A stretch of 64,000 nt of DNA, taken from positions 18,731,574 through 18,795,573 of the forward strand of contig OZ025248.1 of assembly GCA_964019135.1 (NCBI GenBank), in the 5' to 3' direction. Positions 9,553-50,690 of this stretch are shown here, piece by piece. Source of the DNA: Arenicola marina. Its lineage: Eukaryota; Annelida; Polychaeta; Arenicolidae. The translations under genes were made by a program, and so were the position numbers. The notes below the pieces were generated by a model, which saw nothing but the letters and a program-made list of their open reading frames with translations, was not told the DNA's origin and made no database searches. The stretch's first letter is position 1. Each line of letters starts with the position of its first letter.

Positions 9553-10140
9553 GGCACCGCAGCCCGCCATCAGATTACAACCCGCCATCAGATTACAGCC
9601 CGCCATCAGATTACAGCCCCGCCATCAGATTATAACTCGCCATCAGATTACAGCCCGCCGTCAGATAATAACTCGCCATCAGATTACAGCCCGCCATCAG
9701 ATTACAGCCCGCCATCAGATTATAACCCGCCATCAGATTACAGCCTGCCATCAGATTACAGCCCGCCATCAGATTACAGCCTGCCATCAGATTACAGCGC
9801 GCAATCAGATTATAACCCGCCATCAGATTACAGCCTGCCATCAGATTACAGCCCGCCATCAGATTACAGCCTGCCATCAGATTACAGCGCGCAATCAGAT
9901 TATAACCCGCCATCAGATTACAGCCTGCCATCAGATTACAGCCTGCCATCAGATTACAGCCCGCCATCAGATTACAGCCCGCCATCAGATTACAGCCCGC
10001 CTTCAGACGATAACCCGCCATCAGAAGACAGCCCGCCATCAGATTACAGCCTGCCATCAGATTACAGCCCGCCATCAGATTACAGCCCGCCATCAGATGA
10101 TAACCCGCCATCAGAAGACAGCCTGCCATCAGCTTATCGC
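9553..10140. repeat. 18-bp minisatellite
   Basis: About 32 units of CAGATTACAGCCCGCCAT, with variants (CCTGCCAT, TATAACCCGCCAT, GATGATAACC). A six-unit block ending in GCGCGCAATCAGATTATAAC occurs twice. The period is a multiple of three, which yields a 204-codon plus frame (PPSDYS repeats) and a 200-codon minus frame. Neither has any other sign of being a gene. Confidence 0.9.
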
Positions 10141-15943: not shown

Positions 15944-15994
15944 ATAAGACGTTGGCATTGGAAGAGGTGCGCAACTTCGACGTATATCAAGAAG
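15944..15994 (+). CDS. POMGNT1-like: POMGNT1-like exon 1 (first one found): FAM3 domain 1
   Basis: After a strong polypyrimidine/CAG acceptor (15928-15943) it encodes KTLALEEVRNFDVYQE and ends GAA G|GTAAGA. The end aligns with DVVRVGHFDTYAE of domain 2, with the same phase-1 donor. Starts with two bases of a split codon, so an upstream exon must exist. An intron at this point is absent in domain 2. Confidence 0.75.
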
Positions 15995-18900
15995 GTAAGA
16001 CTGGTGTATATTATTCCCATATACAGGGATGGCGTGTGTTTACCAAGCAACGCAGTTCAAATATCATAAAATATTTGCCAACTGTTATATAATGTTTTTG
16101 GTATGTGCCTTTAATCTACTGTATCATTTTACGATGCGTGCATGATTACTTTCAATCAGTTTCAGTGAAACGCTAAATATTTACCAATTTTGGTCACACA
16201 CGTATTGCATGATATAGACTCAAAGGTTAAAGGGGGGCATTAGACTCTATGACATAACTGAGTGTTGATCGTCTCTGTCAGATGCGGTGCTGCTGCGGTA
16301 CCTGAAGCTGGGGGTGCAGGACCACCACATTATACTGGCCGCCAGCCAGGATGAAGCCAGCTTCAAGTGAGTGACAGTCGCCAGTTCAGTCGTCATTGTG
16401 AAGCACGTATAGGTTTGGAAACTTTATGGTAAAGCAGCTTATCTTATCTTGTCTTGCACAATCTTATACCAGAAAACACGTGTTTTATTTACCCGTACGA
16501 AGGTTTGTTCAATTACCTGGCCATTGTTTTGATATTCATGGAATACAACGTTAGACTTTCGATTTAATATTGATGCGTTCAACTTAAGATCAATATATTG
16601 CGATAGTTGCATTTTGCAAGGATTTACATTATTTCTTGCAGCTTAAAAGGAGAAAGCAAGATGTGGATGAATCGATACGGCAGCTCCGTCATAGACAAGT
16701 TGAAGTTCCGAGATGGCTTCATTATTATAGGACAGCGGGGACTGGCTCACGGCAGTGCCGTCGAGAAGGTAAGATGGCTTCATTATTATAGGACAGCGGG
16801 GACTGGCTCACGGCAGTGTCATCGAGAAGGTAAGATGGCTTCGTTACTATAGGACAGCGGGGACTGGCTCACGGCAGTGTCACCGAGAAGGTAAGATGGC
16901 TTCATTATTATAGGACAGCGTGGACTGGCTCACGGCAGTGTCATCGAGAAGGTAAGATGGCTTCATTATTATAGGACAGCGGGGACTGGCTGACGGCAGT
17001 GTTATCGAGAAGGTAAGATGGCTTCATTATTATAGGACAGCGTGGACTGGCTCACGGCAGTGTCATCGAGAAGGTAAGATGGCTTCATTACTATAGGACA
17101 GCGGGGACTGGCTCACGGCAGTGTCATCGAGAAGGTAAGATGGCTTCATTATTATAGGACAGCGGGGACTGGCTGACGGCAGTGTTATCGAGAAGGTAAG
17201 ATGGCTTCATTATTATAAGACAGCGGGGACTGGCTCACGGCAGTGTTATCGAGAAGGTAAGATGGCTTCATTATTATAGGACAGCGGGGACTGGCTCACG
17301 GCAGTGTCATCGAGAAGGTAAGATGGCTTCATTATTATAGGACAGCGGGGACTAGCTCACGGCAGTGTTATCGAGAAGGTAAGATGGCTTCATTATTATA
17401 GGACAACGTGGACTGGCTGACGGCAGTGTCATCGAAAAGGTAAGATGGCTTCATTACTATAGGACAGCGGGGACTGGCTCACGGCAGTGTCATCGAGAAG
17501 GTAAGATGGCTTCATTATTATAGGACAGCGGGGACTGGCTGACGGCAGTGTTATCGAGAAGGTAAGATGGCTTCATTATTATAAGACAGCGGGGACTGGC
17601 TCACGGCAGTGTTATCGAGAAGGTAAGATGGCTTCATTATTATAGGACAGCGGGGACTGGCTCACGGCAGTGTCATCGAGAAGGTAAGATGGCTTCATTA
17701 TTATAGGACAGCGGGGACTGGCTCACGGCAGTGTTATCGAGAAGGTAAGATGGCTTCATTATTATAGGACAACGTGGACTGGCTGACGGCAGTGTCATCG
17801 AAAAGGTAAGATGGCTTCATTATTATAGGACAGCGTGGTCTAGCTCACGGCAGTGTTATCGAGAAGGTAAGATGGCTTCATTACTATAGGACAACGTGGA
17901 ATAGCTAACGGCAGTGCTCTCGAGAAAGTAACTTGACCATTTTATAATAACCGATAATACGTGAATTTTTATCGTTGTCCTGTCGCCCTTATGCATGTAG
18001 ATGAGATAGTCTTCTGGCGTAAAGAGTCTAGTTGTTATATAGTTTTGTTGGTGCCGGATCCCTCAATGTGCCATGTGTTTACCTCCACGCCGTCCCTGGT
18101 CCTTGCAGCACCAGTCGCGGGGCAGCAATGAGTTCGCCGAGCCCACCGAGATGAAGGGATGTCTCCCCGTGCCACGTCAGTTACACGCCGTCTTACCTTC
18201 AAATACAGTATCAGAATTATCAATATCAATTAAAACTCATAGCATAAAAAGATAATTAATTCAGGGTAAAAGTCTCACGCCCTTGATGCTGATATATAGT
18301 TGTTTATATGAACTGATATTAATTCTAGATCTCGTTTAGCTAATGTTTGGTGAGAAAAACGTTATTATAAGGCTTAAAATAATATAGGAACTTAACCAGT
18401 GTGGCACGATATAGCCTTACAACCAAATCTAATAATATAGCGCAATTTAAGCAGTCACACCTTGCCCCCTTCGACCATTGAGACATCTAGTTATATTGCT
18501 GTGCGTCCCGTTGACGTGTAGTGGGCAAGCTGGAGGAGCTTCCGGTGGAGAAGGCTGAGGTGGAGGCCAACCCCAACCTGAAGGTGGGCGAGGAGCTGCC
18601 TAACTGCGGCGTGGGCCAGGCCTGCGGGTCCAACAGCTTCGCTGTCCACCTCTACACCGGCAAGGAGAACAAGGAGGGGCCCAAGATCTGCGTCAACGGC
18701 AAATAGTGAGTAGTATAGTATAGTGGAATAACATTCCTGTGGGAAGCTGAGGACACTGTCATTGTACGTGTTAAGGAACGTTTTCTGGGTATAATTCCAT
18801 ACATGCGGTATATTCATCTCTCCAGTGTTGCGCTGTATGTTTCCTTCGCCCACACAGTCCGGTGTATGTTTCAGCGTGCTGGCCAAGGGTTTGAATGACG

Positions 18901-21900
18901 GCGGCCGAGGGTTCAATGTGGCCATCATCGACCCCAAGACTAAGGACGTCGTGCGAGTGGGACACTTCGACACGTACGCTGAAGGTAAGCCGTGCTGAAA
19001 TCATGCATCCACTGCTGGAGCCATGCTACCACTGCTGTAGCCTGGATCCATGCAACCATGGAGCCATGCTACCACTGCTGGAGCCATGCAACCATGGAGC
19101 CATACAACCATGGAGCCATGCTACCACTGCTGGAGCCATGCAACCATGGAGCCATACAACCATGGAGCCATGCTACCACTGCTGGAGCCTGGAGCCATGC
19201 TACCACTGCTGGAGCCATGCAACCACTGCTGTAGCCTGGATCCATGCAACCATAGAGCCATGCTACCACTGCTGGAGCCATGCAACCATGGAGCCATACA
19301 ACCATGGAGCCATGCTACCACTGCTGGAGCCTGGAACCATGCTACCACTGCTGGAGCCTGGAACCATGCTACCACTGCTGGAGCCTGGAGCCATGCTACC
19401 ACTGCTGGAGCCTGGAACCATGCAACCACTGCTGGAGCCTAGAGCCATGCTACCACTGCTGGAGCCTGGAGCCATGCTACCACTGCTGGAGCCTGGAGCC
19501 ATGCTACCACTGCTGGAGCCTGGAACCATGCTACCACTGCTGGAGCCTGGAACCATGCTACCACTGCTGGAGCCTGGAACCATGCTACCACTGCTGGAGC
19601 CTGGAACCATGCTACCACTGCTGGAGCCTAGAGCCATGCTACCACTGCTGGAGCCTGGAACCATGCTACCACTGCTGGAGCCTGGAGCCATGCTACCACT
19701 GCTGGAGCCTGGAACCATGCTACCACTGCTGGAGCCTGGAGCCATGCTACCACTGCTGGAGCCTGGAACCATGCAACCACTGCTGGAGCCTAGAGCCATG
19801 CTACCACTGCTGGAGCCTGGAGCCATGCTACCACTGCTGGAGCCTGGAGCCATGCTACCACTGCTGGAGCCTGGAGCCATGCTACCACTGCTGGAGCCTA
19901 GAACCATGCTACCACTGCTGGAGCCTAGAGCCATGCTACCACTGCTGGAGCCTGGAGCCATGCTACCACTGCTGGAGCCTGGAGCCATGCTACCACTGCT
20001 GGAGCCTGGAACCATGCTACCACTGCTGGAGCCTGGAACCATGCTACCACTGCTGGAGCCTGGAGCCATGCAACCATAGAGCCATGCTACCACTGCTGGA
20101 GCCATGCAATCATGGAGCCATACAACCATGGAGCCATGCTACCACTGCTGGAGCCTGGAGCCATGCTACCACTGCTGGAGCCTGGAGCCATGCTACCACT
20201 GCTGGAGCCTGGAGCCATGCTACCATGGAGCCATACAACCACTGCTGGAGCCATGCGACCATGGAGCCATGCTACCACTGCTGGAGCCTGGAACCATGCA
20301 ACCATGGAGCCATACAACCACTGCTGGAGCCATGCAACCATGGAGCCATGCAACCACTGCTGGAACCATGCAACCATGGAGCCATGCAACCACTGCTGGA
20401 ACCATGCAACCATTGCTGGAACCATGCAACCATTGCAGGAGCCATGCAACCACTGTTGGAGCCATGCAACCACTGCTGGAGCCATGTAACCACTGCTGGA
20501 GCCATGCAACCACTGCTGGAGCCTAGAGCCATGCAACCACTGCTGGAGCCATGCAACCACTGCTGGAGCCATGCAACCACTGCTGGAGCCTGGAGCCATG
20601 CAACCACTGCTGGAGCCTAGAGCCATGCAACCACTGCTAGAGCCATGCAACCACTGCTGGAGCCATACAACCACTGCTGGAACCATGCAACCACTGCTGG
20701 AGCCGCAGCTGGAGTAGTGGTGCCCTTTAATTATGTATAATGAATAATGTTGGTTTGAGTAGGACGCTTTGCTGACCTCTGTAAGTCATACCGCGAGAAT
20801 GAGAAGGGTCAAGGTCGCAAGGAGCCATGTGTCCGGGAGACATTTGCGTGTGTTGAGCTCGAACGACCCACCGACTTGTGTGTATGACGAATAAGACGCT
20901 TATAGTAATAACAGTAATGGTTTATTTAAAGCTACAAATGGTTGGTGTCGATACAACATGTGTTTCCCTTTGTTTCTGTTCGCAGATAGTAGCAATCTGG
21001 AAATCTTCATTGAAATGATGAATGACAATGAAATCCTGTTGGCCGTATCCCATGACGACGCCTCCAAGAAGTATGTTTTCTCCTTATTCGCATTATTACT
21101 CTCCCGATAAGTTAGTTCTATGTAGAATTGTAATTGTTGGTTGTAACGTCGGTTTCATTGATAAATTATCTTAGTGTCTAACCGAGGGTACTCATTTCCG
21201 CGTCATTTATTGTATCTAGTACTTAGAGGAATACTCTTGTCAATGATGACGTCATCAGGGGCTGTCAATGGCGTTATCGGGGTGTCACTATGACCTCGCG
21301 GTCTGAACGCACTCAAGGTCACCCGATTAATTATACATAAATTATACATTAAGTCCTGTTGTTGACGTTGCCTGTATATGATGGTGCAATACGTAACCAT
21401 TGTTTTTCAAACTGAAGATATTTTATGATGTTTAAATGTTAAGTCCTGCAATTATAAAAGTTAAATTTTGCGACGAGTGTTGGAGATTGTGTTAGACTTC
21501 GTGTTTAACTTTTTTGTTTACCATGTTTTTCACACAAAACACGTGCGTGACATCACTTTTGTTTGGCTTGGAGCGGTCCAGAAGTGGCTAACGACACTTC
21601 ACTTTGTATGTTTGTAGCCTGAACGTGCATGCCACAAAGATATTTGAGTCCCTGGGGTCAACCATGTTGTCGAAAATGTCGTTCCGTGACGTGTGGGCCT
21701 TTGTGGGCCAGAAGGGACTGACCGGCCATAGCACGATCGAGGAGGTAGTGCCCGGTGGCTGTGTGGGGGGCGGGGGTACTTCGGGGTGGTGGTGTACCGT
21801 TACGGGGGCCCGTAGCGACGCAAGGCCTCACATCCAGCATTCGCTTGGCTTGTAATCCTTATTCATCATTTTCTTTCTTTCCTTTATAACCTTATTAATC

Positions 21901-24900
21901 TCAACTTGCTGATTCCTTGGAGCGCGCAATGTGAGCAATAAACACGGGCTTATATGGCTTGGTTTCGGGATTTCATTTGGAAAATAAAAAAAAAAAGTAT
22001 TGTTATTAAAATAGATTAAAAAGATGAACGGCATGAGGGTTTCAAGGATTCATTATTTTAATATGTTGATTTTGTACAGTTCAAGACGGTGCCATGGTTC
22101 GCCATCTCATGCTTGTTGCTTCGTATTTCCAATCGCAACGCTTAGTTTCCCGCCCATATGCATAAATTAAAGCACTCAATGACTAACTGTTTATTAATTA
22201 CGACCGATGTACGATTACTTCGTCATAATGGTATCTAATAATTCTGATCACGTTGTCAGTCAGTCAAGTCATTGAGGTTAATGTGCAACGGAGGCACCCA
22301 ATTGTACCAAGAGTTTTTGTCGTCTGATGCCTTGTTAATATATTGACTGATCAAATTATGTCAATATTTTAAAACACGTAAATCATTAAATTGTATGCAC
22401 ATATATCAATCTTTATCTTTTTCTCTCATATTTCTTTCTTGTTTTGGTCAATTGCACTATGTCCAACATTGTTTGCCTTGCAATAAACTTTTGTGACCTC
22501 TTATTGCTCGTAACTGAGCAAACGTTTTTGGGCTGGATGCCACGCCAGATCCCGCCCCCCCCCCCCCGTTCTCCCCCACTTCCCAAACATCAAGGTAAAA
22601 TGTTTCACTTGAGTGCAGCAAATAAAAGCAAATGGTGCTACAAGAGCTGTGTTTGTTTGAGCCCTGTCGCATTCAGGGAGTGTTGATGCTGTGCGGTAAT
22701 CGTCCCTAGGATTGTCTTCATAGTGGTGTCCCCAGTGTCCTTTCTTCACCCTGCTACCGACCGACACATCACCGCCCACACCCCACACCCCACCCCCACC
22801 GCCCACCCCCCACCCACCAACCCCACCGCCCACACCCCGAGCAGCAGTATCTGGGGCATGTTTGACCCATGCCCATCCCATAGTCGCCGCAGGTTCCTGG
22901 ACCAAAATCTAAACCTCGACGATGACCCAAAAGCGCCACCTTTTTACTTGCCACATCCGCGTCTCTTTGCGTGTAGATATCAGCGTGCACTGTGACTAAT
23001 GTTGGCGCCTACTTGCTCCCCGCCACTGGGCTGTAGACTGTCTGACCACGCCAAGCAGCTGCTCAGTGACCTCGGCAGCGGCATGGTCCAGAACGTCAAG
23101 TTTCGCGACGTCTGGGCATTTGTAGGGCAAAAGGGAATCAAGGGATTCGGTGATCTGGAGCAGGTGACTGGCGGACCCTGGCGATGTGTGTCACGTGATC
23201 CCGCGTCCGTCCTGGCGTGTCCGTGTTGTGGAGTGCTCCCTGCCCCCCCCCCCACTCCTCGCTGTCTAGCGCCCTGCCTGGCGTAGGTCCCGTCGCCCGC
23301 CTGCTGTATGTGACCTGGCATGCTTAGGACCTTCGTCTGGTGGTCGTTATCACTTCTGTTGCTCTTTGTCGTTCACGTAGAGTGTCGTTATGTCGTTATA
23401 TTGGCGGCGTTTGTGGCTTCTTGTTGGCCGAGCGCTGGTTTTTGCGGAAGTTTATTTGTGTAGTTTTGATGCTTCTGTACTATTTGTAAATTAAATTTTG
23501 CATGTTCACGCATGTTATGTTTATTTTTGTAAAGTGCTTGCGCCCCCGAAAAGGCAGCCTTTACTAACGCTGTTTGATGGTGTGAAGTTTGGTTCTGTTG
23601 TGTTTTCCGATCCACAGTTGTAGCTTAGGATAAGGTGTATGCCATTGTTCGTTCGCATATTGTTGTTGTTTTCCTAATGTTATGGGTCCCAGTTGCCCTC
23701 GCCTCCCCTCCCCTCCCCTCCCGAGCCCTGACTGTTAGACATATTTAGCTATTATGTAGGACTATTTGTTGGCTCGCGTGTTAGCCTGTATATCTCTACC
23801 CAATGCACCATGCTTATTGACCATTTCTTTACGTCACTTTGACTATTTCAGTTACCTCATCGCTCACGTAATACTTGGTTAACTAACACATGCTTCTCTT
23901 GCTCTGTTTCGTATCACGTGACGTTCTTGACGACCTTGACCTTGCTTCCACGCCAGCCAATGACGCGCTGTCCCTGAATGTTACACCGCAATATTATTAA
24001 CATATACTTCCTTGTTATGTTAGTTTTGTGACCTACGGTGAAATCTCATTAAGTCATATCCCATCCTGTCTCGAAAACCGATGCGACAAAAGCGCAATGA
24101 GCGTTACAAACTTTGTTGAGCGCAGCATTGTGTGTACACTGCTCACTTCCTATGACTTCACGAGGTTTCACTGGACATAGTGTTGTGGCTGTCACGTGAC
24201 CCCTGTAGTTGCCGCCATTAACTCTTCCAATATTAATCTTTAGTGAATCTGGTCAAGTTGTAGCACATACGGGTTCTTTGTAAACAACAGGTTGCATCCT
24301 ATTTGGATTTACCCGCTGACAGGATTTTATTCACATACGCTTTGTATGATATTTATATCTTACTATTGGGACTTTCAATTTGTAATTTATAAGTCGTTGG
24401 TAGTCATGTGTTTTTTCCAGTTTAAACTAGATTTTTTCACTTTTGTCAGATGTTTACTGATGGAATGACATGGTAATTTTGCTGGTAGAATGTGGTTTTT
24501 GAGCGCGAAAATTGCACCTGTGTGATTTTGTGTAGTAGTATTATTATAAAGAGAACGTTAACGTTGCAGATCGAGTTTGCTGGCACCGGGAGCGCGTGGC
24601 CCAGACCCATAGACCGCAAGCTGTGTGTGCCGACTGAACGTAAGTGTACAGTACATAGCCCACAAGTTGTGTGTGCCGACTGAACGTAAGTGTACAGTAC
24701 ATAGACCCCAAGCTGTGTGTCCACTGAACGTAAGTGTACAGTACATAGACCACAAGCTGTGTGTGCCGACTGAACGTAAGTGTACAGTACATAGACCACA
24801 ATCTGTGTGCCCACTGAACGTACGTGTACAGTACATAGACCCCAAGCTGTGTGTCCACTGAACGTAAGTGTACAGTACATAGACCACAAGCTGTGTGTCC

Positions 24901-36900: not shown

Positions 36901-39900
36901 CCCCTCCGCTCAATAAACCTGGTTATCCCAGGCACCGACCCCTCCGCTCAATAATCCTGGTTATCCCAGGCACCGACCGCTCCCCCCAATAATCCTGGTT
37001 ATCCCAGGCACCGACCCTTCCGCTCAATAATCCTGGTTATCCTAGGTACCGACCCTTCCGCTCAATAAACCTGGTTATCCCAGGTACCGACCCCTCCGCT
37101 CAATAATCCTGGTTATCCCAGGCACCGACCCTTCCGCTCAATAATCCTGGTTATCCTAGGTACCGACCCATCCGCTCAATAATCCTTGTTATCCTAGGTA
37201 CCGACCCATCCGCTCAATAATCCTGGTTATCCCAGGTACCGACCCTTCCGCTCAATAATCATTGTCATCCCAGGTACCGACCCCTCCGCTCAATAATCCT
37301 TGTTATTCCAAGCACCGACCGCTCCCCCCAATAATCCTTGTCATCCCAGGTACCGACCCTTCCGCTCAATAATCCTTGTTATCCAAGGTACCGACCCTTC
37401 CGCTCAATAATCCTGGTTAACCCAGGTACCGACCCTTCCGCTCAATAATCCTTGTTATTCCAGGTACCGACCCTTCCGCTCAATAGTCCTTGTTATCCCA
37501 GGTACCGACCCCTCCGCTCAATAATCCTTGTTATCCCAGGTACCGAACCTTCCGCTCAATAATCCTTGTTATACCAGGTACCGACCCCTCCGCTCAATAA
37601 TCCTGGTTATCCCAGGCACCGACCCCTCCGCTCAATAATCCTTGTTATCCCAGGTACCGACCCTTCCGCTCACTAATCCTTGTTATCCCAGGTACCGACC
37701 CCTCCGCTCAATAATCCTTGTTATCCCAGGTACCGACCCCTCCGCTCAATAAACCTGGCTATCCCAGGTACCGACCCCTCCGCTCAATAATCCTGGTTAT
37801 CCCAGGCACCGACCCCTCCGCTCAATAATCCTGGTTATCCCAGGCACCGACCCCTCCGCTCAATAATCCTGGTTATCCTAGGTACCGACCCCTCCGCTCA
37901 ATAAACCTGGTTATCCCAGGTACCGACCCCTCCGCTCAATAATCCTGGTTATCCCAGGCACCGACCCCTCCTCTCAATAATCCTGGTTATCCCAGGTACC
38001 GACCCCTCCGCTCAATAATCCTTGTTATCCCAGGCACCGACCCCTCCTCTCAATAATCCTGGTTATCCCAGGTACCGACCCCTCCGCTCAATAATCCTGG
38101 TTATCCCAGGCACCGACCCCTCCTCTCAATAATCCTGGTTATCCCAGGTACCGACCCCTCCGCTCAATAATCCTGGTTATCCCAGGTACCGACCCCTCCG
38201 CTCAATAATCCTTGTTATCCCAGGCACCGACCCCTCCTCTCAATAATCCTGGTTATCCCAGGTACCGACCCCTCCGCTCAATAAACCTGGTTATCCCAGG
38301 CACCGACCCTTCCGCTCAATAATCCTTGTTATCCCAGGTACCGACCCTTCCGCTCACTAATCCTTGTTATCCCAGGCACCGACCCCTCCTCTCAATAATC
38401 CTGGTTATCCCAGGTACCGACCCCTCCGCTCAATAATCCTGGTTATCCCAGGCACCGACCCCTCCGCTCAATAATCCTGGTTATCCCAGGTACCGACCCC
38501 TCCGCTCAATAAACCTGGTTATCCCAGGTACCGACCCCTCCGCTCAATAATCCTGGTTATCCCAGGCACCGACCCCTCCTCTCAATAATCCTGGTTATCC
38601 CAGGTACCGACCCCTCCGCTCAATAATCCTTGTTATCCCAGGCACCGACCCCTCCTCTCAATAATCCTGGTTATCCCAGGTACCGACCCCTCCGCTCAAT
38701 AATCCTGGTTATCCCAGGCACCGACCCCTCCGCTCAATAATCCTGGTTATCCCAGGTACCGACCCCTCCGCTCACTAATCCTTGTTATCCCAGGTACCGA
38801 CCCCTCCGCTCAATAATCCTGGTTATCCCAGGCACCGACCCCTCCGCTCAATAATCCTTGTTATCCCAGGTACCGACCCCTCCGCTCACTAATCCTGGTT
38901 ATCCCAGGTACCGACCCCTCCGCTCAATAATCCTGGTTATCCCAGGCACCGACCCCTCCGCTCAATAATCCTGGTTATCCCAGGCACCGACCCCTCCGCT
39001 CAATAATCCTGGTTATCCCAGGTACCGACCCTTCCGCTCAATAAACCTGGTTATCCCAGGTACCGACCCCTCCGCTCAATAATCCTTGTTATCCCAGGTA
39101 CCGACCCCTCCGCTCAATAAACCTGGTTATCCCAGGCACCGACCCCTCCGCTCAATAATCCTGGTTATCCCAGGCACCGACCGCTCCCCCCAATAATCCT
39201 GGTTATCCCAGGCACCGACCCTTCCGCTCAATAATCCTGGTTATCCTAGGTACCGACCCTTCCGCTCAATAAACCTGGTTATCCCAGGTACCGACCCCTC
39301 CGCTCAATAATCCTGGTTATCCCAGGCACCGACCCTTCCGCTCAATAATCCTGGTTATCCTAGGTACCGACCCATCCGCTCAATAATCCTTGTTATCCTA
39401 GGTACCGACCCATCCGCTCAATAATCCTGGTTATCCCAGGCACCGACCCCTCCGCTCAATAATCCTTGTTATCCCAGGTACCGACCCTTCCGCTCACTAA
39501 TCCTTGTTATCCCAGGTACCGACCCCTCCGCTCATAAATCCTTGTTATCCAAGGTACCGACCCTTCCGCTCACTAATCCTTGTCATCCCAGGTACCGACC
39601 CCTCCGCTCAATAACCCTGGTTATCCCAGGCACCGACCCCTCCGCTCAATAATCCTGGTTATCCCAGGTACCGACCTCTCCGCTCAATAAACCTGGTTAT
39701 CCCAGGTACCGACCCCTCCGCTCAATAACCCTGGTTCTCCCAGGCACCGACCCCTCCGCTCAATAATCCTGGTTATCCCAGGTACCGACCCCTCCGCTCA
39801 ATAATCCTTGTTATCCCAGGTACCGACCCTTCCGCTCAATAATCCTGGTTATCCCAGGTACCGACCCCTCCGCTCAATAAACCTGGTTATCCCAGGCACC

Positions 39901-42900
39901 GACCCCTCCGCTCAATAATCCTTGTTATCCCAGGTACCGACCCCTCCGCTCAATAATCCTTGTTATCCCAGGTACCGACCCTTCCGCTCAATAATCCTGG
40001 TTATCCCAGGTACCGACCCCTCCGCTCAATAAACCTGGTTATCCCAGGCACCGACCCTTCCGCTCAATAATCCTTGTTATCCCAGGTACCGACCCTTCCG
40101 CTCACTAATCCTTGTTATCCCAGGCACCGACCCCTCCGCTCAATAATCCTTGTTATCCCAGGCACCGACCCTTCCGCTCAATAATTCTGGTTATCCCAGG
40201 TACCGATCCCTCCGCTCAATAATCCTTGTTATCCCAGGTACCGACCCTTCCGCTCAATAATCCTTGTTATCCCAGGCACCGACCCTTCCGCTCAATAATC
40301 CTGGTTATCCCAGGCACCGACCCTTCCGCTCAATAATCCTGGTTATCCCAGGTACCGACCCTTCCGCTCAATAATCCTTGTTATCCCAGGTACCGACCCC
40401 TCCGCTCAATAATCCTTGTTATCCCAGGCACCGACCCCTCCGCTCAATAATCCTGGTTATCCCAGGCACCGACCCTTCCGCTCAATAATCCTGGTTATCC
40501 CAGGTACCGACCCCTCCGCTCACTAATCCTTGTTATCCCAGGTACCGACCCCTCCGCTCACTAATCCTTGTTATCCCAGGTACCGACCCCTCCGCTCAAT
40601 AATCCTGGTTATCCCAGGTACCGACCCTTCCGCTCAATAATCCTTGTTATCCCATGCACCGACCCTTCCGCTCAATAATCCTTGTTATCCCAGGCACCGA
40701 CCCTTCCGCTCAATAAACCTGGTTATCCCAGGCACCGACCCTTCCGCTCAATAATCCTTGTTATCCCAGGCACCGACCCCTCCGCTCAATAAACCTGGCT
40801 ATCCCAGGTACCGACCCTTCCGCTCAATAATCCTTGTTATCCAAGGTACCGACCCTTCCGCTCACTAATCCTTGTTATCCCAGGCACCGACCCTTCCGCT
40901 CAATAATCCTGGTTATCCCAGGTACCGACCCTTCCGCTCAATAATCCTGGTTAACCCAGGTACCGACCCTTCCGCTCGATAATCCTGATATATATATGTA
41001 TATGTATATATAATCCTGTATATGGATATGTTGAGGTTTATTTCATAGGCCTGTGTGTTTTGTGGGTTTAAGGTTTGAACCATAATGCCGTGAGGATGCA
41101 GCTGGAAACCCTCATCATGAACCCGGGAATAAGTCCACAGATGGTCACCGTGAGTATGAGTTCAATGGTCGTCATGGTCACCGTGGTATGAGTTCAATAG
41201 TCGCCATGGTCACCGTGGTAGGAGTTCAATAGTCGCCATGGTCACCGAGTTCAGTGGTCAGTTCCAATAAACCAATGTACCAATAAACTACCGATAATGT
41301 CGTATCAGATAAGGAATGAGTTGTAGGTCATTATTGGGATCGAAGAACTTCGATGCGTAGCCGAGAAGTTGTGAGATCCCAATGGCTTAATGGCTTAATG
41401 CATACTTCTATTGTTTCCTCCGAGGAGGCGGCGATGGCATGGAGTATGTGAGCGAGGGGTCATTATTGTGACCGAACTACAATGACCCGCTCTGGTACAA
41501 TAATGACCTCCTGCTCACGGTCCGCAGGTCCTTACCGGCAAAACACCGAGGAAACAATAGATGTATGCATTAAAGACAGGTCTTGACTTATAACTGATTT
41601 GCATGCCTGTATATTTGTACTTTTTGTGACATCTCTCGTACTATAAAAAAATATTGTAATCGCATCTACCGCTGATAACAACATAACAGGCCAAAACGGC
41701 GTTTGGGGGATTTATTACTCGACGGTTGTGTGTGTTCTGCACCATATAATGACATGTGTTTGGTTGCTGCCAGGTCATGTATGACGAGAAGTTTGACGAG
41801 CCCGCCGCCCTGGCCGAGCTGTTCAACTTCAAGACTGCCAAGATGGTTGGCAGCACGAAATACGTGTGTAAGTCGCTCACAGAACCTCTTATCTCCATGT
41901 AATAAATAAAATACTAATAAAAAGAAAAACCTATAATTATATTGCTGTTCGTTTTTAACAAGCTTACTTATAATATAACAACTCTAATCATATTAGACAC
42001 AAAATGGATTGTTTTTAATAATTACAATAATTGTTTTAATAATGACAGCTTTTGTTATTAATAACAATCATAAAGAATTAGCAATTGTTTCATCACTAAT
42101 TATAATGAATACTATTTATTTATAATATATATATATATGACATACACCCATTTTGGTTTTCAGATCAAGTGGAGAAGGCCCTGGAGAAAGTGTGGGAACT
42201 CTTCCCTGAAGCGGTCAGTCGGTGTTCTGCTTCTCATCTCATCTCACCCTGTCATGTTACGTGATACTTTATGCATACGAGATTGATTCCTCACTGATGG
42301 TATATCTATATCTGATGTATGTGTCTGCCAGAAGAATACGTTCATAGAAGGTATAATGTTGGTGTGTAGGACGCTGTAACACCTTGGCATGGTTACATGG
42401 TGACTGGGCCGTGACGGGCTGGCATGGTTACATGGTGACTGGGCCGTGACGGGCTGGCATGGTTACATGGTGACTGGGCCATGACGGGCTGGCATGGTTA
42501 TACGATGACTGGGCCGTGACGGTCTGGCATGGTTACGAGATGCCTGGGCCGTGACGGGCTGGCATGTTTACATGATGTTGGGCCGTGACGGACTGGCATG
42601 GTTACATGATGACGGTGACATGATGCCCTGACGGGCTAGCCACGAAATCGATTATAATTAATAGATTGTATGCGTGAGTAATACGTGAGCTATGCTGATG
42701 GAAGATGGTTGGTGTTCCAGAAGCACGTGTTGGTGCTGGAGGAGGAGGTGATCCTGGGGCCGGACTTCCTGTACTTCATGTCTCAGTGCCTCACGGCCGC
42801 CAACTCCGACGACTCCATCATAGGCGTGTCGGCCTTCAACGAGAACGGTCAGTCCACACAGGGTATCCGGCAAATAAAGGAAAAGAAAATTGATAGAAAT

Positions 42901-45900
42901 GATTATAGTCATAAAATAAAATAATTTTATATATTATTGAATATAATAAGTAATTAAATGTTGTGTTTTTGTACGACGATCAAATTTCCGCTTGGAGTGT
43001 ATGGGATCACGATATCGATCATTTAGTTAGGCTTGAGTAATACGTGGGCTATGACAGTCTCTCATTCCAATGTACGATATGGACCTCCTTATTATGTTGA
43101 TATGTGGCCGGACGGCCGTGTTTGTCAAATAACTATACTTGTGTTAAAACGCTCAATTATGTTTGAATCTGCTATGCTTAATAATTGGTGGAGTGTGTTG
43201 TTAACGAGTGAATGAGTAACCTGTACAAAGAGGGTGGCTCTCTTCGCCGGTGGACGCGCTGCACCTGTAGCCTGCACCACTGTCTACATATCAACATAAT
43301 AAGGAGGCCCATATCGTACATTGGAATGAGAGACTGTCATAGCCCACGTATTACTCAAGCCTAACTAAATGATCGATATCGTGATCCCGTACACTCCATA
43401 CACTGTCTACAGTGGTGCAGGTGACCATTTGCGCGGAAGCACAATTCCAGTGGTGCCGTTGGCGTGGTGCCGTTGGGGTGGTGCCGTTAGGGTGGTGCCG
43501 TTGGGGTGGCACCGTTGGGCTGGCGCCGTGGGGCTGGCGCCGTCGGGGTGGCGCCGGTTGGGTGGCGCCGTTAGGGTGGCGCCGTCGGGGTGGCGCCGGT
43601 GGGGTGGCGCCTTTCGGGTGGCGCCGTTGGCCTGGCCGCGTTCGGGTGGTGCTGTTGGGCTGGCGCCATTGAGGTGGCGCCATTGGGGTGGCGGCGTTAG
43701 GGTGGCGCCGTTGGCCTGGCCGCGTTGGGGTGGTGCTGTTCGGCTGGCGCCATTGAGGTGGCGCCTTTGGGGGGGTGCCGTTGGGGTGGCACCGTTAGGG
43801 TGGCGCCGTGGGAGTGGTGCCATTAGGGTGGCGCCGATGGGGTGGCGCCGTGGGAGTGGCGCCGTTGCGGTGGCGCCGTTGTGGTGGCGTTGTCAAGTGG
43901 TCTGCCTGGGTTATTTGTCTCCGATCTGCGGGGTAATGATAGATACGAGTAGACCTGTGGCGCGGAGTCCCCGACACAGGAAGGCGACCCTAAATCCTAC
44001 TTCCGACCTTCAGCTTTCAGGCCTGGCATAATGACACCGGATGTATGTCGTTTCGACTGTCGCCTGGGGGGGTGGGGGGTGGGAGGGGGTACTGTGACTT
44101 GGTGGGGAGACAGGGCGGTACTGTCACTTGGGGAGGCGATACTGTCACTCAGGGGGTGGGTACTGTGGGGGAGGGGTGCATCGTTGATTAAGCGGGGGCG
44201 GGAGATGTGGGGGCGGGCTCACCGGAAAGGGGTGGGGAGGGGTGTGTGTGGGGGGGGGGGGGGTAGGGACCTGGTTGTTACCTGGTAACATTCAAAGAGT
44301 GCGCACAGAGCTATTTCTATTTCGTCACCGATATGTTATGTTGGCAAATGATGATAGGTATCCCCTCAGGCAGAACGATGGTGTGGGAGATCGGGGCGGG
44401 GGGGAGGCGGACTGACGAGCCGCTATAGTGGCTAGACGTGGGCTGACGGGACAGACACCCCCCCCCGTCCGATGGTGTGGGAGGTAGGGGGGGGGGGGTG
44501 GTAGGAGGATTGACCAGCCCCCCTGATGGCCCAGTGGGTTAAGTGCACGACCACTGTAGACCCAAGATCGTCCATTCATCTCTTGTTAATCAGTTCTGAG
44601 AGCTTTCCTGTGATATTCTGGTTCTGTATGTTCTGTATGCTGTGAGGACTGTCAGCCGAGTGGCCTGTTCTGTGGGCAGCCCGTTGATCTGGTGTTGTCG
44701 CTGCAGGTTACCAGGGCTTCTCGACCAACCCGGGCCTGGCGTACCGCGTGGACACCTTCCCCGGCCTCGGCTTCCTCCTCAAGAAGGCATTCTATGACGA
44801 GCACATGAAGGGACACATGAACGAATGTTGTCTCAAGAGGTAAACTAGAGACAAACTAGAGCGCAAGTCTTTCTGTTTACTGGCTGGTTACCGCGTTAGC
44901 TTGTTTACCGAGTCCGACTGATTGGCGTTTTATGGTTGTTTGAGTGTGCGGTGTGTTTTCCAGGTCCTGGGAGTCGTGGTTCGGCCGTAAGCTGGGCGGC
45001 AAGGAGATGATTGTTCCCGATGTGTCACGTGTCTATCGCCGGCCCTACGAGGGGCTCTCGGAAATGGCCGACTTCCTGAAGGAACTCTTCAACAGGGACC
45101 GCGTCACCAACCTGTGAGTCTGGCTATTCCATTCTACGCCCCCCCTCACTTCAACAGGGACCGCGTCACCAACCTGTGAGTCTGGCTAGTCCATTCTACC
45201 GCCCCTCCCCTCTCACTTCTACAGGGACCGTGTCACCAACCTGTGAGTCTGGCTATTCCATTCTACCGCCCCCCCTCTCAATTCGGCTATTCCATTCTAC
45301 CGCCCCCCCCCTCTCAATTCTACAGGGACCGCGTCAACAACCTGTCAGTGGCTGTTCCACATTCCTCCCCCTGTTGACGAATGTTGCTTACACGTGTTTA
45401 ATGTCATAGATGGTGTGACCTACCCCGGATCGTGGCTCTCGGCTTTCCCATTGAGACTAACTTCCCTTTAAGATGTGTTATACTAAAGCAAAACGCACCT
45501 GATAACGATAATAACTCATGTTGAATATAGTCATTTATAAGGTTGTGTGGCCCGTTAAGAAGATCGTATCTGATAGATTTTGTTTATCTTCTATATCTTA
45601 TATCACTACCGATACTGCACAATATGACGTCAACATGCCCGTCTTGTCATCGACATACTAATGATTGTGCCCCCCCCCCCCCCCCCGTCCTTCACCCAGG
45701 GAGGCCAGGCCGAAGCTGACGAACGCGGACAACCTGACCAAGTACAAGTACGAGGAGGAGCTAAGCGAGCTGCTGCGGGCCAGCGCCGCCCTGGACACAG
45801 CCAACGTGGCGGACTGTCTGCAGGGGCGCGGCCTGGGCTTCTACATCCCCGAGACGGCAGGGTAAGCGTGCCTACCCCCCCCCCCCCCCCTCCTCTGTAA

Positions 45901-46911
45901 CCCTTCTACATCCCCGAGACGGCAGGGTGAGCCCCCCTACCCCCACTCCTCTGTAACCCTTCTATATCCTCGAGACGGCAGGGTAAGCGTGCCTACCACC
46001 CCCCCCCCTCTGTAACCCTTCCCCGAGACCGCAGGGTGAGCCCCCCTACCCCCCCCCCCCACCCTGTAACCCTTCTACATCCCCGAGACGGCAGGGTGAG
46101 TGTGCCTACCCCCCCCGCCCCCCTCTGTAACCCTTCCCCGAGACCGCAGGGTCAGCCCCCCTACCCCCCCCCCCACCCTGTAACCCTTCTACATCCCCGA
46201 GACGACAGGGTCAGCCCCCCCTCCCCGCCTGTAACCCTTCCCCGAGACTGCAGAGTCAGTCTGCCTCTTCCACCCCCCCCCCCCCACCCCCTCTCTCTCT
46301 CTCTTTAGGCCAGTTTTATACTGTATCCAGTTATTATTGTGCTGATCTAACGGCGGGAGGCTGCTCTCTTGCAGGAAGAGCCTGTCGGTGTACTACGAGC
46401 AGCAGGCGGCCTCGGACTTCACCGTGCTGTCCGCGCTCACACGCTGCTTCAAGCTCTTCCACGTGGAGGGGTACCGACCACGTGGTCTGCACAACGGACT
46501 GCTCAGGTAAGTCACGTTATCGCGAGATCTGGGCACGCGGGATGTCGCGAGAAGGAGGGTCGCGAGGACGACGCCGTGCGGCAGGGTGTGTGTATACCGG
46601 GGCCATCTCTTACAAGTACAATATCTCATCGATTATTGTCCTTACTGACAGATAATAATAATAATAATAATAATGTTACATAATAATAATGTTACATAAC
46701 AATAATGTTACATAATAATAATAACAATGTTACATAATAATAATGTTACATAATAATATCTCCCTTGCTGAGTGGTGTGTGTCATGGTTGCAGGTTCACC
46801 TACAAGGGCAACACTGTCCTGTTGGTCGGGTCCGAGTCGCCCTACGCCAAGTTCATGCCCAAGTCCTACAAGATGGTGCAGCGATCACAGCTACCGCCGG
46901 CAGGATCCTGA
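15944..46911 (+). CDS. POMGNT1-like: POMGNT1-like glycosyltransferase with two FAM3/ILEI-type domains (5' end missing)
   Basis: Exons: 15944-15994, 16282-16366, 16642-16768, 18109-18175, 18522-18705, 18875-18984, 20986-21070, 21618-21744 (or 23037-23163), 24570-24639, 27134-27232, 33264-33359, 41073-41149, 41774-41867, 42164-42213, 42721-42847, 44707-44839, 44964-45113, 45700-45861, 46375-46506, 46794-46911. All have AG/GT borders and matching phases; the sum closes at TGA after 713 residues. Residues 1-109 are the back half of a FAM3/ILEI domain. Residues 138-301 are a full one (C138, C144, KICVNGK, GRGFNVAI, FDTYAE, HDDAS, RDVWAFVGQKG, LCVP). Residues about 345-713 match the GT13 domain of POMGNT1 (RRKFC..GYGDFC, VPIIVI, ISPQMVT, WELFPEA, LVLEEE, YRVDTFPGLGFLL, IVPDVSR). 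Human POMGNT1 adds GlcNAc beta-1,2 to O-mannose on alpha-dystroglycan in the Golgi; its stem is one FAM3-like lectin domain. Here the metal motif is EEE (human EED) and the W-D motif is W-E, so activity and acceptor may differ. Confidence 0.9.
16282..16366 (+). CDS. POMGNT1-like: POMGNT1-like exon 2: FAM3 domain 1
   Basis: 85 nt, phase 1 in and phase 2 out, the same size and phases as exon 7 (20986-21070) of domain 2. Encodes HHIILAASQDEASF, with the D-E/D-x-S motif of the FAM3 fold retained. Confidence 0.9.
16642..16768 (+). CDS. POMGNT1-like: POMGNT1-like exon 3: FAM3 domain 1
   Basis: 127 nt, identical in length and phase to exons 8A and 8B of domain 2. Encodes KLKFRDGFIIIGQRGLAHGS: the RD pair is kept but the usual W-x-F after it is replaced by F-I-I. 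The last 54 nt and the donor are the seed of the 61-bp array that follows. Confidence 0.92.
16769..17935 (+). repeat. 61-bp donor-anchored minisatellite, 19 units without length change
   Basis: Each unit is GTAAGAT plus a copy of the last 54 nt of exon 3. Copies of the donor fall at 16769 + 61n up to 17928 with no indel at all. A variant unit with TATAAGACAG recurs exactly 366 bp (six units) apart, showing block duplication. The first GTAAGA is taken as the true donor because it gives phase 0 into exon 4. Each unit also contains TATTATAG before GACAGC, an acceptor-like AG. Confidence 0.95.
18109..18175 (+). CDS. POMGNT1-like: POMGNT1-like exon 4: end of FAM3 domain 1
   Basis: 67 nt, phase 0 in, phase 1 out. 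Encodes SNEFAEPTEMKGCLPVP; the GCLP end corresponds to the E-G-C-I-P terminus of FAM3 proteins. Its counterpart in domain 2 is exon 9 (24570-24639). Confidence 0.88.
18522..18705 (+). CDS. POMGNT1-like: POMGNT1-like exon 5: linker and start of FAM3 domain 2
   Basis: 184 nt. An acidic linker (KLEELPVEKAEVEANP) is followed by CGVGQACGSNSFAVHLYTG and GPKICVNGK. The spacing of the Cys residues and the GPKIC block match the start of FAM3A/C-type domains. Confidence 0.93.
18875..18984 (+). CDS. POMGNT1-like: POMGNT1-like exon 6: FAM3 domain 2
   Basis: 110 nt. Encodes VLAKGLNDGGRGFNVAIIDP then GHFDTYAE. GRG-x-N-V-A is a hallmark strand of the fold. Donor GTAAGC at 18985 opens the intron with the 18-27 bp array. 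Confidence 0.95.
19010..20705 (+). repeat. Compound 18/24/27-bp minisatellite in intron 6
   Basis: Built from two modules: CTACCACTGCTGGAGCCTGG AGCCATG (27 bp) and shorter ones such as CAACCATGGAGCCATA or CAACCACTGCTGGAGCCATG. The centre (about 19330-20060) is homogeneous 27-mer; the edges mix modules. The mostly triplet period leaves several frames open (up to 446 codons), all repeat artefacts. Not anchored on a splice site, unlike several other arrays in this gene. Confidence 0.92.
20986..21070 (+). CDS. POMGNT1-like: POMGNT1-like exon 7: FAM3 domain 2
   Basis: 85 nt, encoding SSNLEIFIEMMNDNEILLAV then SHDDAS. Matches the helix plus strand before the D-D motif in FAM3C. Ends on two bases (AA) of a codon, so the next exon fixes the residue: N with exon 8A, K with exon 8B. 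Confidence 0.95.
21618..21744 (+). CDS. POMGNT1-like: POMGNT1-like exon 8A: FAM3 domain 2, alternative copy A
   Basis: 127 nt. Encodes LNVHATKIFESLGSTMLSKM then SFRDVWAFVGQKGLTGHS. Phase 2 in, phase 0 out. Shares 21 of 43 residues with exon 8B, including the unbroken FRDVWAFVGQKG. Donor GTAGTG is weak compared with others in the gene. Confidence 0.93.
21745..23036. other. Intron between the two alternative exons
   Basis: No third exon copy found. Holds a C-run with poly-CCCCG near 22550-22570 and a CACCCCAC-rich stretch at 22770-22840. Otherwise AT-rich unique sequence. Confidence 0.5.
23037..23163 (+). CDS. POMGNT1-like: POMGNT1-like exon 8B: FAM3 domain 2, alternative copy B
   Basis: 127 nt, same phases as 8A. 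Encodes KLSDHAKQLLSDLGSGMVQN then FRDVWAFVGQKGIKGFG. This copy looks closer to FAM3C (KL-x-x-x-A, DLGS, FRD-x-W, KGIK, EQ). Reading it after 8A gives ACT GTC TGA at once, so both cannot be kept in one functional mRNA. Confidence 0.92.
23164..24569. other. Intron 8, unique sequence
   Basis: No exon or array recognised. A CCCCTCCCCTCCC run lies near 23703-23722. Confidence 0.5.
24570..24639 (+). CDS. POMGNT1-like: POMGNT1-like exon 9: end of FAM3 domain 2
   Basis: 70 nt, phase 0 in, phase 1 out; counterpart of exon 4. Encodes IEFAGTGSAWPRPIDRKLCV PTE in two parts; LCVP parallels GCLP of exon 4 and the C-I-P end of FAM3 proteins. It supplies the one base needed by exon 10 (C|TG). Its last 32 nt plus GTAAGT seed the array that follows, so the true donor is one among about 46 near-identical ones. 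Confidence 0.85.
24640..26710 (+). repeat. 44/46-bp donor-anchored minisatellite, about 46 units
   Basis: Unit: GTAAGTGTACAGTA, then a copy of the last 32 nt of exon 9 (CATAGACCGCAAGCTGTGTG, TGCCGACTGAAC). Two length classes: TGTGTGCCGACTGAAC (46 bp) and TGTGTCCACTGAAC (44 bp). Almost every unit keeps a perfect GTAAGT; a minority read GTACGT. Long minus-strand frames (up to 765 codons) are artefacts. Confidence 0.95.
26711..27133. other. End of intron 9, unique
   Basis: AT-rich, with a good acceptor for exon 10 (TTGTTTGCTGCAG ending 27133). Nothing else seen. Confidence 0.6.
27134..27232 (+). CDS. POMGNT1-like: POMGNT1-like exon 10: neck between stem and catalytic domain
   Basis: 99 nt, encoding KGSQIKPDPLANKNEKRRKF then CAKFDGYGDFCE. 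The basic run and C-x-K-x-x-GYG-x-x-C match human POMGNT1 just before the GT13 domain (RRRRRFCSKVEGYGSVC). Donor GTAAGT. Confidence 0.95.
27475..33240. repeat. 35-bp minisatellite, about 165 units, filling intron 10
   Basis: Unit TGATGCCTGTCCATTGCTTG GCGTAGACACGGTAA. Variants: CTGC/TTGC/TCGC/TCGT, TAGACACGG/TAGATACGG/TACACATGG, ATGATG/ATGTTG. Marker variants (CATCGTTTGGCG) repeat at 28351, 28841, 29401 and 29856, i.e. spaced by exact multiples of 35 (14, 16 and 13 units), showing block duplications. The right third uses mostly TCGC/TACACATGG units and is more uniform. Open minus frames of up to 1,043 codons are artefacts. Confidence 0.95.
33264..33359 (+). CDS. POMGNT1-like: POMGNT1-like exon 11: start of GT13 domain
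   Basis: 96 nt, encoding EHIDESLTPAPLTDKALENH then SIFLVPIIVIPG. VPIIVIPG aligns with VPVAVIAGN of human POMGNT1, the first strand of the nucleotide-sugar fold. The N of the human AGN motif is supplied as GLN by exon 12. Last bases TTGTTATTCCAG and the donor seed the 38-bp array. Confidence 0.95.
33360..40986 (+). repeat. 38-bp donor-anchored minisatellite, about 200 units (7.6 kb)
   Basis: Unit GTACCGACCCCTCCGCTCAA TAATCCTTGTTATCCCAG; it starts at the exon 11 donor and ends with a copy of the exon's last 12 nt. Many units read CCCAG|GTACC, others CCCAG|GCACC. A marked block (CCGACCGCTCCCCCCAATAA) occurs at 34541, 36973 and 39177, spaced 64 and 58 units exactly, with flanking variants shared. 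The array ends in a short TATATGTATA stretch (40987-41035). Confidence 0.96.
41073..41149 (+). CDS. POMGNT1-like: POMGNT1-like exon 12: GT13 domain
   Basis: 77 nt, encoding LNHNAVRMQLETLIMNPGIS then PQMVT. Matches human YRMLRSLLSAQGVSPQMIT. Ends phase 0 at ACC|GTGAGT. Confidence 0.95.
41141..41260 (+). repeat. Short donor-anchored repeat (about 35-38 bp, 3-4 units)
   Basis: CATGGTCACCGTGGTATGAG TTCAATAGTCGC repeated after the exon 12 donor. Each copy carries ATGGTCACC|GTG from the exon end, but the later copies have poor donor consensus (GTGGTA). A small example of the same process as the big arrays. Confidence 0.8.
41261..41773. other. Rest of intron 12
   Basis: Unique sequence apart from a rough inverted repeat: GTCATTATTGGGATCGAAG (41330) and CATACTTCTATTGTTTCCTC (41401) are echoed in reverse by GAGGAAACAATAGATGTATG (41549). 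Confidence 0.4.
41774..41867 (+). CDS. POMGNT1-like: POMGNT1-like exon 13: GT13 domain
   Basis: 94 nt, encoding VMYDEKFDEPAALAELFNFK then TAKMVGSTKYV. Corresponds to the human [20 protein letters not shown] segment, which follows the first strands of the fold. Confidence 0.94.
42164..42213 (+). CDS. POMGNT1-like: POMGNT1-like exon 14: GT13 domain
   Basis: 50 nt, encoding YQVEKALEKVWELFPEA. Aligns with the helix HYKASLTATFNLFPEAK of human POMGNT1. Phase 1 in, phase 0 out. Confidence 0.94.
42375..42640. repeat. 35-bp minisatellite in intron 14, about 7 units
   Basis: Unit CATGGTTACATGGTGACTGG GCCGTGACGGGCTGG. Units decay toward the right end. Not anchored on a splice site. Confidence 0.88.
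42721..42847 (+). CDS. POMGNT1-like: POMGNT1-like exon 15: metal-motif exon
   Basis: 127 nt, encoding KHVLVLEEEVILGPDFLYFM, then SQCLTAANSDDSIIGVSAFN, ENG. The LEEEV stretch (residues 447-449 of the visible protein) stands where human POMGNT1 has EED and MGAT1 has EDD, the Mn2+/UDP-binding motif; the metal-binding Asp is replaced by Glu. Confidence 0.95.
42994..43397. repeat. Long inverted repeat (about 112-bp arms, 180-bp spacer) in intron 15
   Basis: Left arm 42994-43105 and right arm 43286-43397 are reverse complements with few mismatches (for example GATCACGATATCGATCATTT against AAATGATCGATATCGTGATC). A short flanking pair (CCTGCACCACTGT near 43271 and ACAGTGGTGCAGG near 43409) adds a second nested fold. 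It may be a foldback/MITE-type insertion or a tail-to-tail duplication. The intron RNA would form a strong hairpin. Confidence 0.85.
43440..43890. repeat. 15-bp GC-rich minisatellite
   Basis: About 30 units of GGTGGCGCCGTTGGG with variants. Period 15 leaves frames open on both strands (up to 220 codons); no gene evidence. Confidence 0.9.
43891..44706. other. G-rich remainder of intron 15
   Basis: Plus strand carries many runs of four or more G at 44055-44265 and again at 44395-44510, with one C-run at 44458-44466. G-quadruplex potential is high by inspection. No exon until the acceptor at 44706. Confidence 0.6.
44707..44839 (+). CDS. POMGNT1-like: POMGNT1-like exon 16: GT13 domain
   Basis: 133 nt, encoding GYQGFSTNPGLAYRVDTFPG, then LGFLLKKAFYDEHMKGHMNE, CCLKR. 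YRVDTFPGLGFLLKK aligns with YRVETMPGLGWVLRR of human POMGNT1, part of the donor and acceptor site. Confidence 0.96.
44964..45113 (+). CDS. POMGNT1-like: POMGNT1-like exon 17: catalytic-base region
   Basis: 150 nt, encoding SWESWFGRKLGGKEMIVPDV, then SRVYRRPYEGLSEMADFLKE, LFNRDRVTNL. IVPDVSR is shared with human POMGNT1 (IIPDVSR). The W-D-x-W of GT13 enzymes, which carries the catalytic Asp, reads W529-E530-S-W. The last 18 nt and the donor recur three times downstream. Confidence 0.95.
45114..45345 (+). repeat. Donor-anchored repeat with acceptor, microexon and donor in each unit
   Basis: Three further copies of AG|GGACCGCGTCACCAACCT|GTGAGT follow exon 17, with GT at 45177, 45242 and about 45341 (the last GTCAGT). 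Each is preceded by a C/T-rich tract ending in CAACAG or CTACAG. The core is 18 nt, a multiple of three. Confidence 0.88.
45346..45699. other. Rest of intron 17
   Basis: Unique sequence, ending in a long C-run (45670-45686) and the acceptor for exon 18. Nothing else recognised. Confidence 0.5.
45700..45861 (+). CDS. POMGNT1-like: POMGNT1-like exon 18: C-terminal part of GT13 domain
   Basis: 162 nt, encoding EARPKLTNADNLTKYKYEEE, LSELLRASAALDTANVADCL, QGRGLGFYIPETAG. Corresponds to the human [20 protein letters not shown] region through the DTEG turn. The end (CTACATCCCCGAGACGGCAG) and donor seed a decaying repeat. Confidence 0.94.
45862..46262 (+). repeat. Donor-anchored, decaying repeat of about 55-65 bp, 7-8 units
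   Basis: Copies of CTTCTACATCCCCGAGACGG CAGG|GTAAGC separated by C-runs of varying length. Donor versions run GTAAGC, GTGAGC, GTAAGC, GTGAGC, GTGAGT, GTCAGC, GTCAGC, GTCAGT from left to right, so consensus quality falls with distance from the exon. Confidence 0.88.
46375..46506 (+). CDS. POMGNT1-like: POMGNT1-like exon 19
   Basis: 132 nt, encoding KSLSVYYEQQAASDFTVLSA, then LTRCFKLFHVEGYRPRGLHN, GLLR. Matches human [20 protein letters not shown] through NHRGLWRL. Donor GTAAGT. Confidence 0.95.
46640..46765. repeat. AT-rich microsatellite in intron 19
   Basis: Runs of ATA and of ATAATAATGTTACATA repeats just upstream of the last acceptor. Confidence 0.9.
46794..46911 (+). CDS. POMGNT1-like: POMGNT1-like exon 20: C-terminus and stop
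   Basis: 118 nt, encoding FTYKGNTVLLVGSESPYAKF, then MPKSYKMVQRSQLPPAGS and TGA at 46909-46911. Matches the human end FRKKNHFLVVGVPASPYSVK and stops soon after, without the Pro-rich human tail. Confidence 0.94.
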
Positions 46912-50200: not shown

Positions 50201-50690
50201 AGAGTGGGAGTCTCTGGTGGGATGATGTTTGTGCGTCAGGCAGTCTGTACAACCCTGAGCTAGCTACCCTCTGTCAGCACTACCAGAGGGTACAGAGTGG
50301 GAGTCTCTGGTGGGATGATGTCTGTGTGTCAGTCAGTCTGTACAACCCTGAGCTAGCTACCCTCTGTCAGCACTACCAGGGGGTACAGAGTGGGAGCTTC
50401 TGGTGGATGATATCTGTGTGTCAGTCAGTCTGTACAACCCTGAGCTAGCTACCCTCTGTCAGCACTACCAGAGGGTACAGAGTGGGAGTCTCTGGTGGGA
50501 TGATGTCTGTGTGTCAGTCAGTCTGTACAACCCTGAGCTAGCTACCCTCTGTCAGCACTACCAGGGGGTACAGAGTGGGAGTCTCTGGTGGGATGATGTC
50601 TGTGTGTCAGTCAGTCTGTACAACCCTGAGCTAGCTACCCTCTGTCAGCACTTCCAGAGGGTACAGAGTGGGAGTCTCTGGTGAGATGAT
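47275..50690 (+). repeat. 93-bp minisatellite (89-bp variants), about 37 units
   Basis: Unit TCTGTACAACCCTGAGCTAG, CTACCCTCTGTCAGCACTAC, CAGAGGGTACAGAGTGGGAG, TCTCTGGTGGGATGATGTCT, GTGTGTCAGTCAG. The 93-bp unit reads as 31 codons (SLYNPELATLCQHYQRVQSG...), so open frames reach 359 codons. Units lacking CTCT (89 bp), and two with GGTGGATGATAT, break the frame. It lies just past the stop of the POMGNT1-like gene, probably in its 3' UTR or intergenic. Confidence 0.94.

Follow-up and report, generated by a model that had tools for sequence, protein, structure and literature searches.

Gene structure and tandem arrays in the window

The window, by which we mean the whole 64-kb stretch of DNA analyzed here, carries a POMGNT1-like gene on the forward strand (15944..46911), in which 21 exons (E1-E21) were found with the support of the spliced reading frame, homology and Pfam. 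When 20 of these exons are joined, with E8 or E9 taken alternatively, they form a single frame whose sole stop codon is the terminal one (46909-46911). E8 (21618..21744) and E9 (23037..23163), both on the forward strand, are each 127 nt long and encode ILEI domain sequence; because using both breaks the frame, they look like duplicated, mutually exclusive exons. All 20 donors carry GT and all 21 acceptors AG, once the E19/E20 border is moved a single base, a change without effect on the spliced product. A match to human POMGNT1 covers residues 164-701 (E 5.6e-73) and is gapless across the E10/E11, E12/E13, E13/E14 and E19/E20 borders, with a gap of one residue near E18/E19. The predicted protein also matches human FAM3C (E 8e-26), and Pfam recognizes two stretches of ILEI together with GNT-I. 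E3 lies outside the POMGNT1 match, and its end is backed by the paralogous exons E8 and E9 (all three are 127 nt long, and the phase of E3 is identical to that of E8). This model lacks the 5′ end of the gene, since E1 begins at an acceptor; tblastn searches with two protein stretches against both flanks in the window yielded no convincing hit, the best one having an E of 0.032 over 16 residues.

Six donors of this gene, those of E3, E10, E12, E13, E18 and E19, open directly into tandem arrays whose unit consists of the last 58, 32, 10, 9, 27 and 24 nt of the exon, respectively, plus the donor, such that copies resembling the true donor, from a few up to roughly 200 in number, come after it. 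All six lie on the forward strand and were delineated by TRF and unit alignment. The array at E3 (16711..17931; exon end 16768) has a 61-bp unit in 20 copies including the exon copy, the array at E10 (24608..26706; exon end 24639) has a 44/46-bp unit in 47 copies, and the largest, at E12 (33350..40987; exon end 33359), has a 38-bp unit in 201 copies. The E12 unit contains CAG|GT at the junction, preceded by a stretch judged by eye to be pyrimidine-rich, and it has no match among viral contigs. The remaining three arrays are short and degenerate, and the placement of a few of their copies is uncertain: a 32-bp unit in about four copies at E13 (41141..41247; exon end 41149), the weakest of the six; a unit of about 67 bp in three clear copies at E18 (45087..45320; exon end 45113), with degenerate copies reaching to about 45365; and a unit of about 56 bp with C runs in about seven or eight copies at E19 (45838..46226; exon end 45861).

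These results confirm both the exon ends and the central observation of the preliminary description, namely that six introns bear arrays seeded on the exon/donor junction, with the reservation that E13 is a weak case. Some particulars have changed. The exonic part of the unit, previously given as 9-54 nt, reaches 58 nt at E3, its lower end being correct. The junctions attributed to exons 3, 9, 11, 12, 17 and 18 are the same six under new numbers, since E8 and E9 are now both counted, and what had been six of 19 introns (the number in any single transcript of this stretch) becomes six of 20 donors.

Tandem repetition is widespread in this region. TRF returned 70 rows, or 32 arrays after merging, which together occupy about 38.3 kb of the 64 kb window (about 60%); 14 of the arrays are inside the gene span and 18 outside. 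The 14 are spread over 8,602 bases of unique intronic sequence and the 18 over 14,827 bases beyond the gene, and array sequence makes up approximately 20.1 kb of the gene's 31 kb span. Unique non-exonic sequence has a GC content of 0.445, and the CpG observed/expected ratio in unique sequence is 0.91. The first unit begins within an exon in six of the 14 merged intronic arrays, and the other eight are unanchored. The larger unanchored arrays, all on the forward strand and delimited by TRF, lie in intron 6 (19042..20704, starting 57 nt past the donor), intron 11 (27459..33247, starting 226 nt past the donor and ending 16 nt short of the acceptor), intron 15 (42385..42613) and intron 16 (43450..43889). 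They are the ones that had been assigned to introns 6, 10, 14 and 15 under the earlier numbering; four further, smaller TRF arrays occupy introns 8, 14, 16 and 20.

Several other features of the window deserve mention. Intron 16 also holds an inverted repeat (42993-43105 and 43286-43398) with 113-nt arms that are 98% complementary and separated by 180 nt, possibly a small transposon. Directly downstream of the stop codon, a 93-bp unit is repeated 36.9 times (47276-50696), and a 31-codon frame stays open through many of its copies, though indels interrupt it (the ORFs are 222, 359 and 231 aa long). At 9560-10136, 32 copies of an 18-bp unit form a 204-aa open frame of SPPSDY-like repeats. Minus-strand open frames at 8459-8869 and 56977-57279 resemble what we take to be retroelement remnants, and a Pfam search of these two frames gave nothing above cut-offs.

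Frequency of arrays at donor junctions

In a region so dense in arrays, some will cover a donor by accident, and the expected number can be estimated in several ways. If each array is collapsed to one unit and placed at random in its own intron, 1.19 anchored arrays are expected and six or more have a P of 3.7e-4; with placement in any intron, the expectation falls to 0.85 and P to 7.5e-5. Results of this placement test are similar at TRF cut-offs of 50-300, and at a TRF score of at least 1000, three of the five remaining arrays are anchored (P 0.012, own intron). Alternatively, the coverage of background sequence by seeds predicts 0.90 of the 20 donors, with a P of 1.9e-4 for the six observed, or 1.6e-3 if E13 is dropped to leave five. 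A background taken from intergenic arrays only predicts 1.15 donors (P 7.1e-4), a value that would be an overestimate if arrays outside the gene overlie splice sites of unseen genes, and one taken from unanchored intronic arrays only predicts 0.45 (P 3.6e-6). All of these P values are post hoc, in that the pattern was seen before it was tested and the window was picked for it, and they overstate the case. The original claim that six anchored introns are far beyond chance is thus right in direction but too strong: arrays are dense, 0.45-1.2 donors are expected, and P ranges from 4e-6 to 7e-4 depending on the background and reaches 0.012 at the strictest TRF cut-off.

Donors and acceptors were compared by a symmetric test, in which a 24-mer centered on each splice junction was used to find copies with at most five mismatches within 10 kb. 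Such copies occur at five of the 20 donors (18 at E3, 46 at E10, 200 at E12, two at E18 and six at E19) and at none of the 21 acceptors (Fisher P 0.0086). The absence of arrays from 21 acceptors is unremarkable by itself (P 0.38). The E13 donor yields no copies by this test, because its copies diverge directly after the GT and fail the cut-off. The donors of E8 and E9, which are homologous to that of E3, bear no array.

The six arrays appear to have separate beginnings. A seed family shared by all of them was considered and set aside, as comparison of one to three units per array revealed no convincing similarity (the best match is 10 nt long, E 0.12), and the reading of six independent, unrelated seeds in the preliminary description is a fair one. 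For two of the arrays, an upper limit on relative age can also be given. The ILEI module is duplicated within the gene (E2/E7, 85 nt; E3/E8/E9, 127 nt; E4, 67 nt, and E10, 70 nt; all with equal phases), and introns 3 and 8/9, like introns 4 and 10, occupy homologous positions in the two modules. Junction arrays are present in introns 3 and 10 but in none of their homologs, so both arrays are younger than the introns that hold them.

Origin and persistence of the junction arrays

Unit alignment gives 279 downstream copies in these arrays, of which 211 have GT. Of all 279, 184 come within 0.5 bit of the true donor's score, or above it, by a matrix built from the 20 donors of the gene itself. Approximately 18 copies of equal strength follow E3 and about 40 follow E10. 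If a downstream GT copy were used in place of the first donor, a premature stop would result in 210 of 211 cases, the exception being one weak copy in the E13 array; the reading frame therefore supports use of the first, 5′-most donor in each of the six introns.

The explanation that we favor as probable, although by no means certain, is that the arrays are mirage-type minisatellites, descended from duplications that happened to span a donor and kept since the 5′-most donor is the one used. In a minisatellite-rich genome, tandem duplications would by chance cover an exon/5′ splice-site junction from time to time and could then grow by repeated unequal exchange or slippage. If the splicing machinery picks the first donor by position, all later copies would be intronic and growth would be nearly neutral. 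Duplications within exons or across acceptors, by contrast, would alter the mRNA and presumably be removed; duplication of an acceptor would leave the extra units in the exon, provided that splicing picks the first AG downstream of the branch point. Tolerance of growth at donors had been among the mechanisms suggested at the outset, and it fits the anatomy.

Such a filter would account for the survival of the arrays but not for there being six. Perhaps, and here we are less sure, births at donor junctions are also raised several-fold by some unspecified cause; a bias of this kind may exist because tolerance alone predicts about one donor array, not six. The simplest alternative is that the filter was joined by luck, with arrays born anywhere, roughly one for each kb of unique sequence, donors merely permitting them, and an extreme gene having been noticed for being extreme. 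We regard this as a serious contender with somewhat less than an even chance of being right. It gains from the density of arrays both inside the gene and outside it, from the fact that P values of the size obtained could be reached somewhere among the many genes of a genome, and from the weakening of the signal among the highest-scoring arrays. What tells against it is the excess over every background used, which persists when E13 is left out.

A stronger version of birth bias is that exon/5′ splice-site junctions are hotspots of minisatellite birth, at roughly 5-13 times the local background, through something tied to the junction rather than through base skew, microhomology or hairpins. We consider this doubtful, though worth entertaining. 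GC skew of the unit is positive in three arrays (+0.29, +0.09 and +0.20) and negative in three (-0.43, -0.44 and -0.46). Microhomology, scored at the left boundary only, amounts to zero shared bases in all six arrays. Single units of the six anchored arrays fold no better than shuffled sequences (z from -0.97 to 1.06), and four unanchored units range from 0.56 to -2.40. If the hotspot exists, each array born there would offer a natural trial of competition among as many as dozens of equal donors, won by the first.

It might be argued instead that the arrays are selected for, whether as spare donors, as U1 sites that guard long introns against premature polyadenylation, or as recursive splice points, for which the CAG|GT of the E12 unit would be a candidate. 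Donor-like sites do remain intact in places, with GT in all copies of the E3 array and in 47 of 47 in the E10 array. However, of the 201 copies in the E12 array, 134 have T as the second donor base and 67 have C, so that one third carry GC, and the copies at E13 make weak donors. Moreover, the donor window is conserved no more than the rest of the unit, ranking 14 of 61 for variation at E3, 12 of 44 at E10 and 22 of 38 at E12, and when a single stretch of each was spot-checked, five of seven unanchored intronic arrays had no sense-strand site scoring above 5. We accordingly judge selection for the arrays improbable. Neither purging nor special upkeep of donors is clear among the copies of the E3, E10 and E12 arrays. 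In these same three arrays, constraint on the exonic part as coding sequence was not significant, with 11 of 34 columns variable at third positions versus 12 of 66 at the other two (Fisher P 0.14), and growth shows little polarity: copies become slightly less identical to the exon copy along the E3 array (r -0.48), but not along those at E10 (r 0.12) and E12 (r 0.10).

Seeding by R-loops or by transcription-linked slippage at the 5′ splice site, also raised in the preliminary description, would explain why seeds sit at the junction within a gene, and we find no more specific support for it. R-loops are expected on G-rich non-template strands, but the coding strand is G-rich in three units and C-rich in the other three, and none of the six single units folds beyond its shuffles. 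This explanation is quite unlikely, and slippage guided by microhomology fares no better, given the left boundaries.

Two further readings have very little to recommend them. The first is that the arrays created the introns, for which there is precedent: PMC3087553 proposes that mirages can yield new introns, and intron gain by tandem duplication is reported in PMC4974935. It is very improbable here in view of the array-free homologs of introns 3 and 10 in the duplicated module, an argument that concerns those two introns. The second, that exon ends are wrong or that the arrays are assembly artifacts, is no more credible: repeats are hard to assemble and our copy numbers come from one assembly, but the frame is free of stops, borders are GT-AG, homology spans the junctions, and copies in the three long arrays diverge by about 3-6% per column, which is not what one read pasted repeatedly would produce.

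The favored account, in which chance duplications over a donor persist through use of the first copy, would have consequences beyond this gene. If the first donor is indeed used, the arrays are natural experiments on the long-standing question of how the spliceosome chooses among 5′ splice sites of equal strength. Should an excess at donors prove general across the genome, gene structure would be tied to whether minisatellites arise or survive, and introns would have a simple route to lengthening. In the open-access literature, to which our survey was confined, we recognized no genome-wide survey of donor-anchored arrays.

Relation to mirages and other boundary duplications

The resemblance to amphioxus mirages noted in the preliminary description is borne out, in that the anatomy agrees with what PMC3087553 and PMC3902484 describe. 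In the former, mirages in the amphioxus globin genes BflGb6 and BflGb9 are tandem copies of intron-exon boundaries, found at both intron ends, that vary between haplotypes and leave splicing undisturbed. Mirage units there range from 10 to 160 bp, with units of 10-72 bp in Adh3 and of 150-160 bp in three to six copies in the globin genes. Because those globin genes bear acceptor mirages as well, arrays at acceptors are not always removed, which counts against the filter proposed above. In the case of lancelet PGBD5, repeats lie over splice sites, again with splicing undisturbed, according to PMC3902484.

By comparison, the annelid gene has boundary copies at six junctions (weakly at E13), with units of 32-67 bp by TRF that fall within the range of mirages. 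Judged by sequence anatomy, the arrays fit the definition of a mirage, and they stand out by how many there are, by their copy counts and by lying only at donors. Such arrays have been described in certain amphioxus genes; six within one gene is unusual.

Among the systems considered, amphioxus mirages are alike in being minisatellite-like boundary copies, most with splice signals, and the Adh3 units match ours in size. They differ in that the globin units are 150-160 bp long, number three to six copies and occur at both intron ends, whereas here arrays are found at donors only, at six donors of a single gene and in up to 201 copies. Lancelet PGBD5 (PMC3902484) is similar in that a single gene has repeats touching or covering the 5′ splice sites of more than one intron, with the frame continuing from the first copy; it is unlike our case in having two loci, with two to seven copies of 60 and 108 bp that vary between assemblies, and some repeats that cover 3′ splice sites. 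PMC4974935 reports the gain of introns through tandem duplication, which likewise takes place at an exon where splice signals are present. In that process, however, a new intron is the product, whereas in the gene described here introns 3 and 10, at least, predate their arrays.
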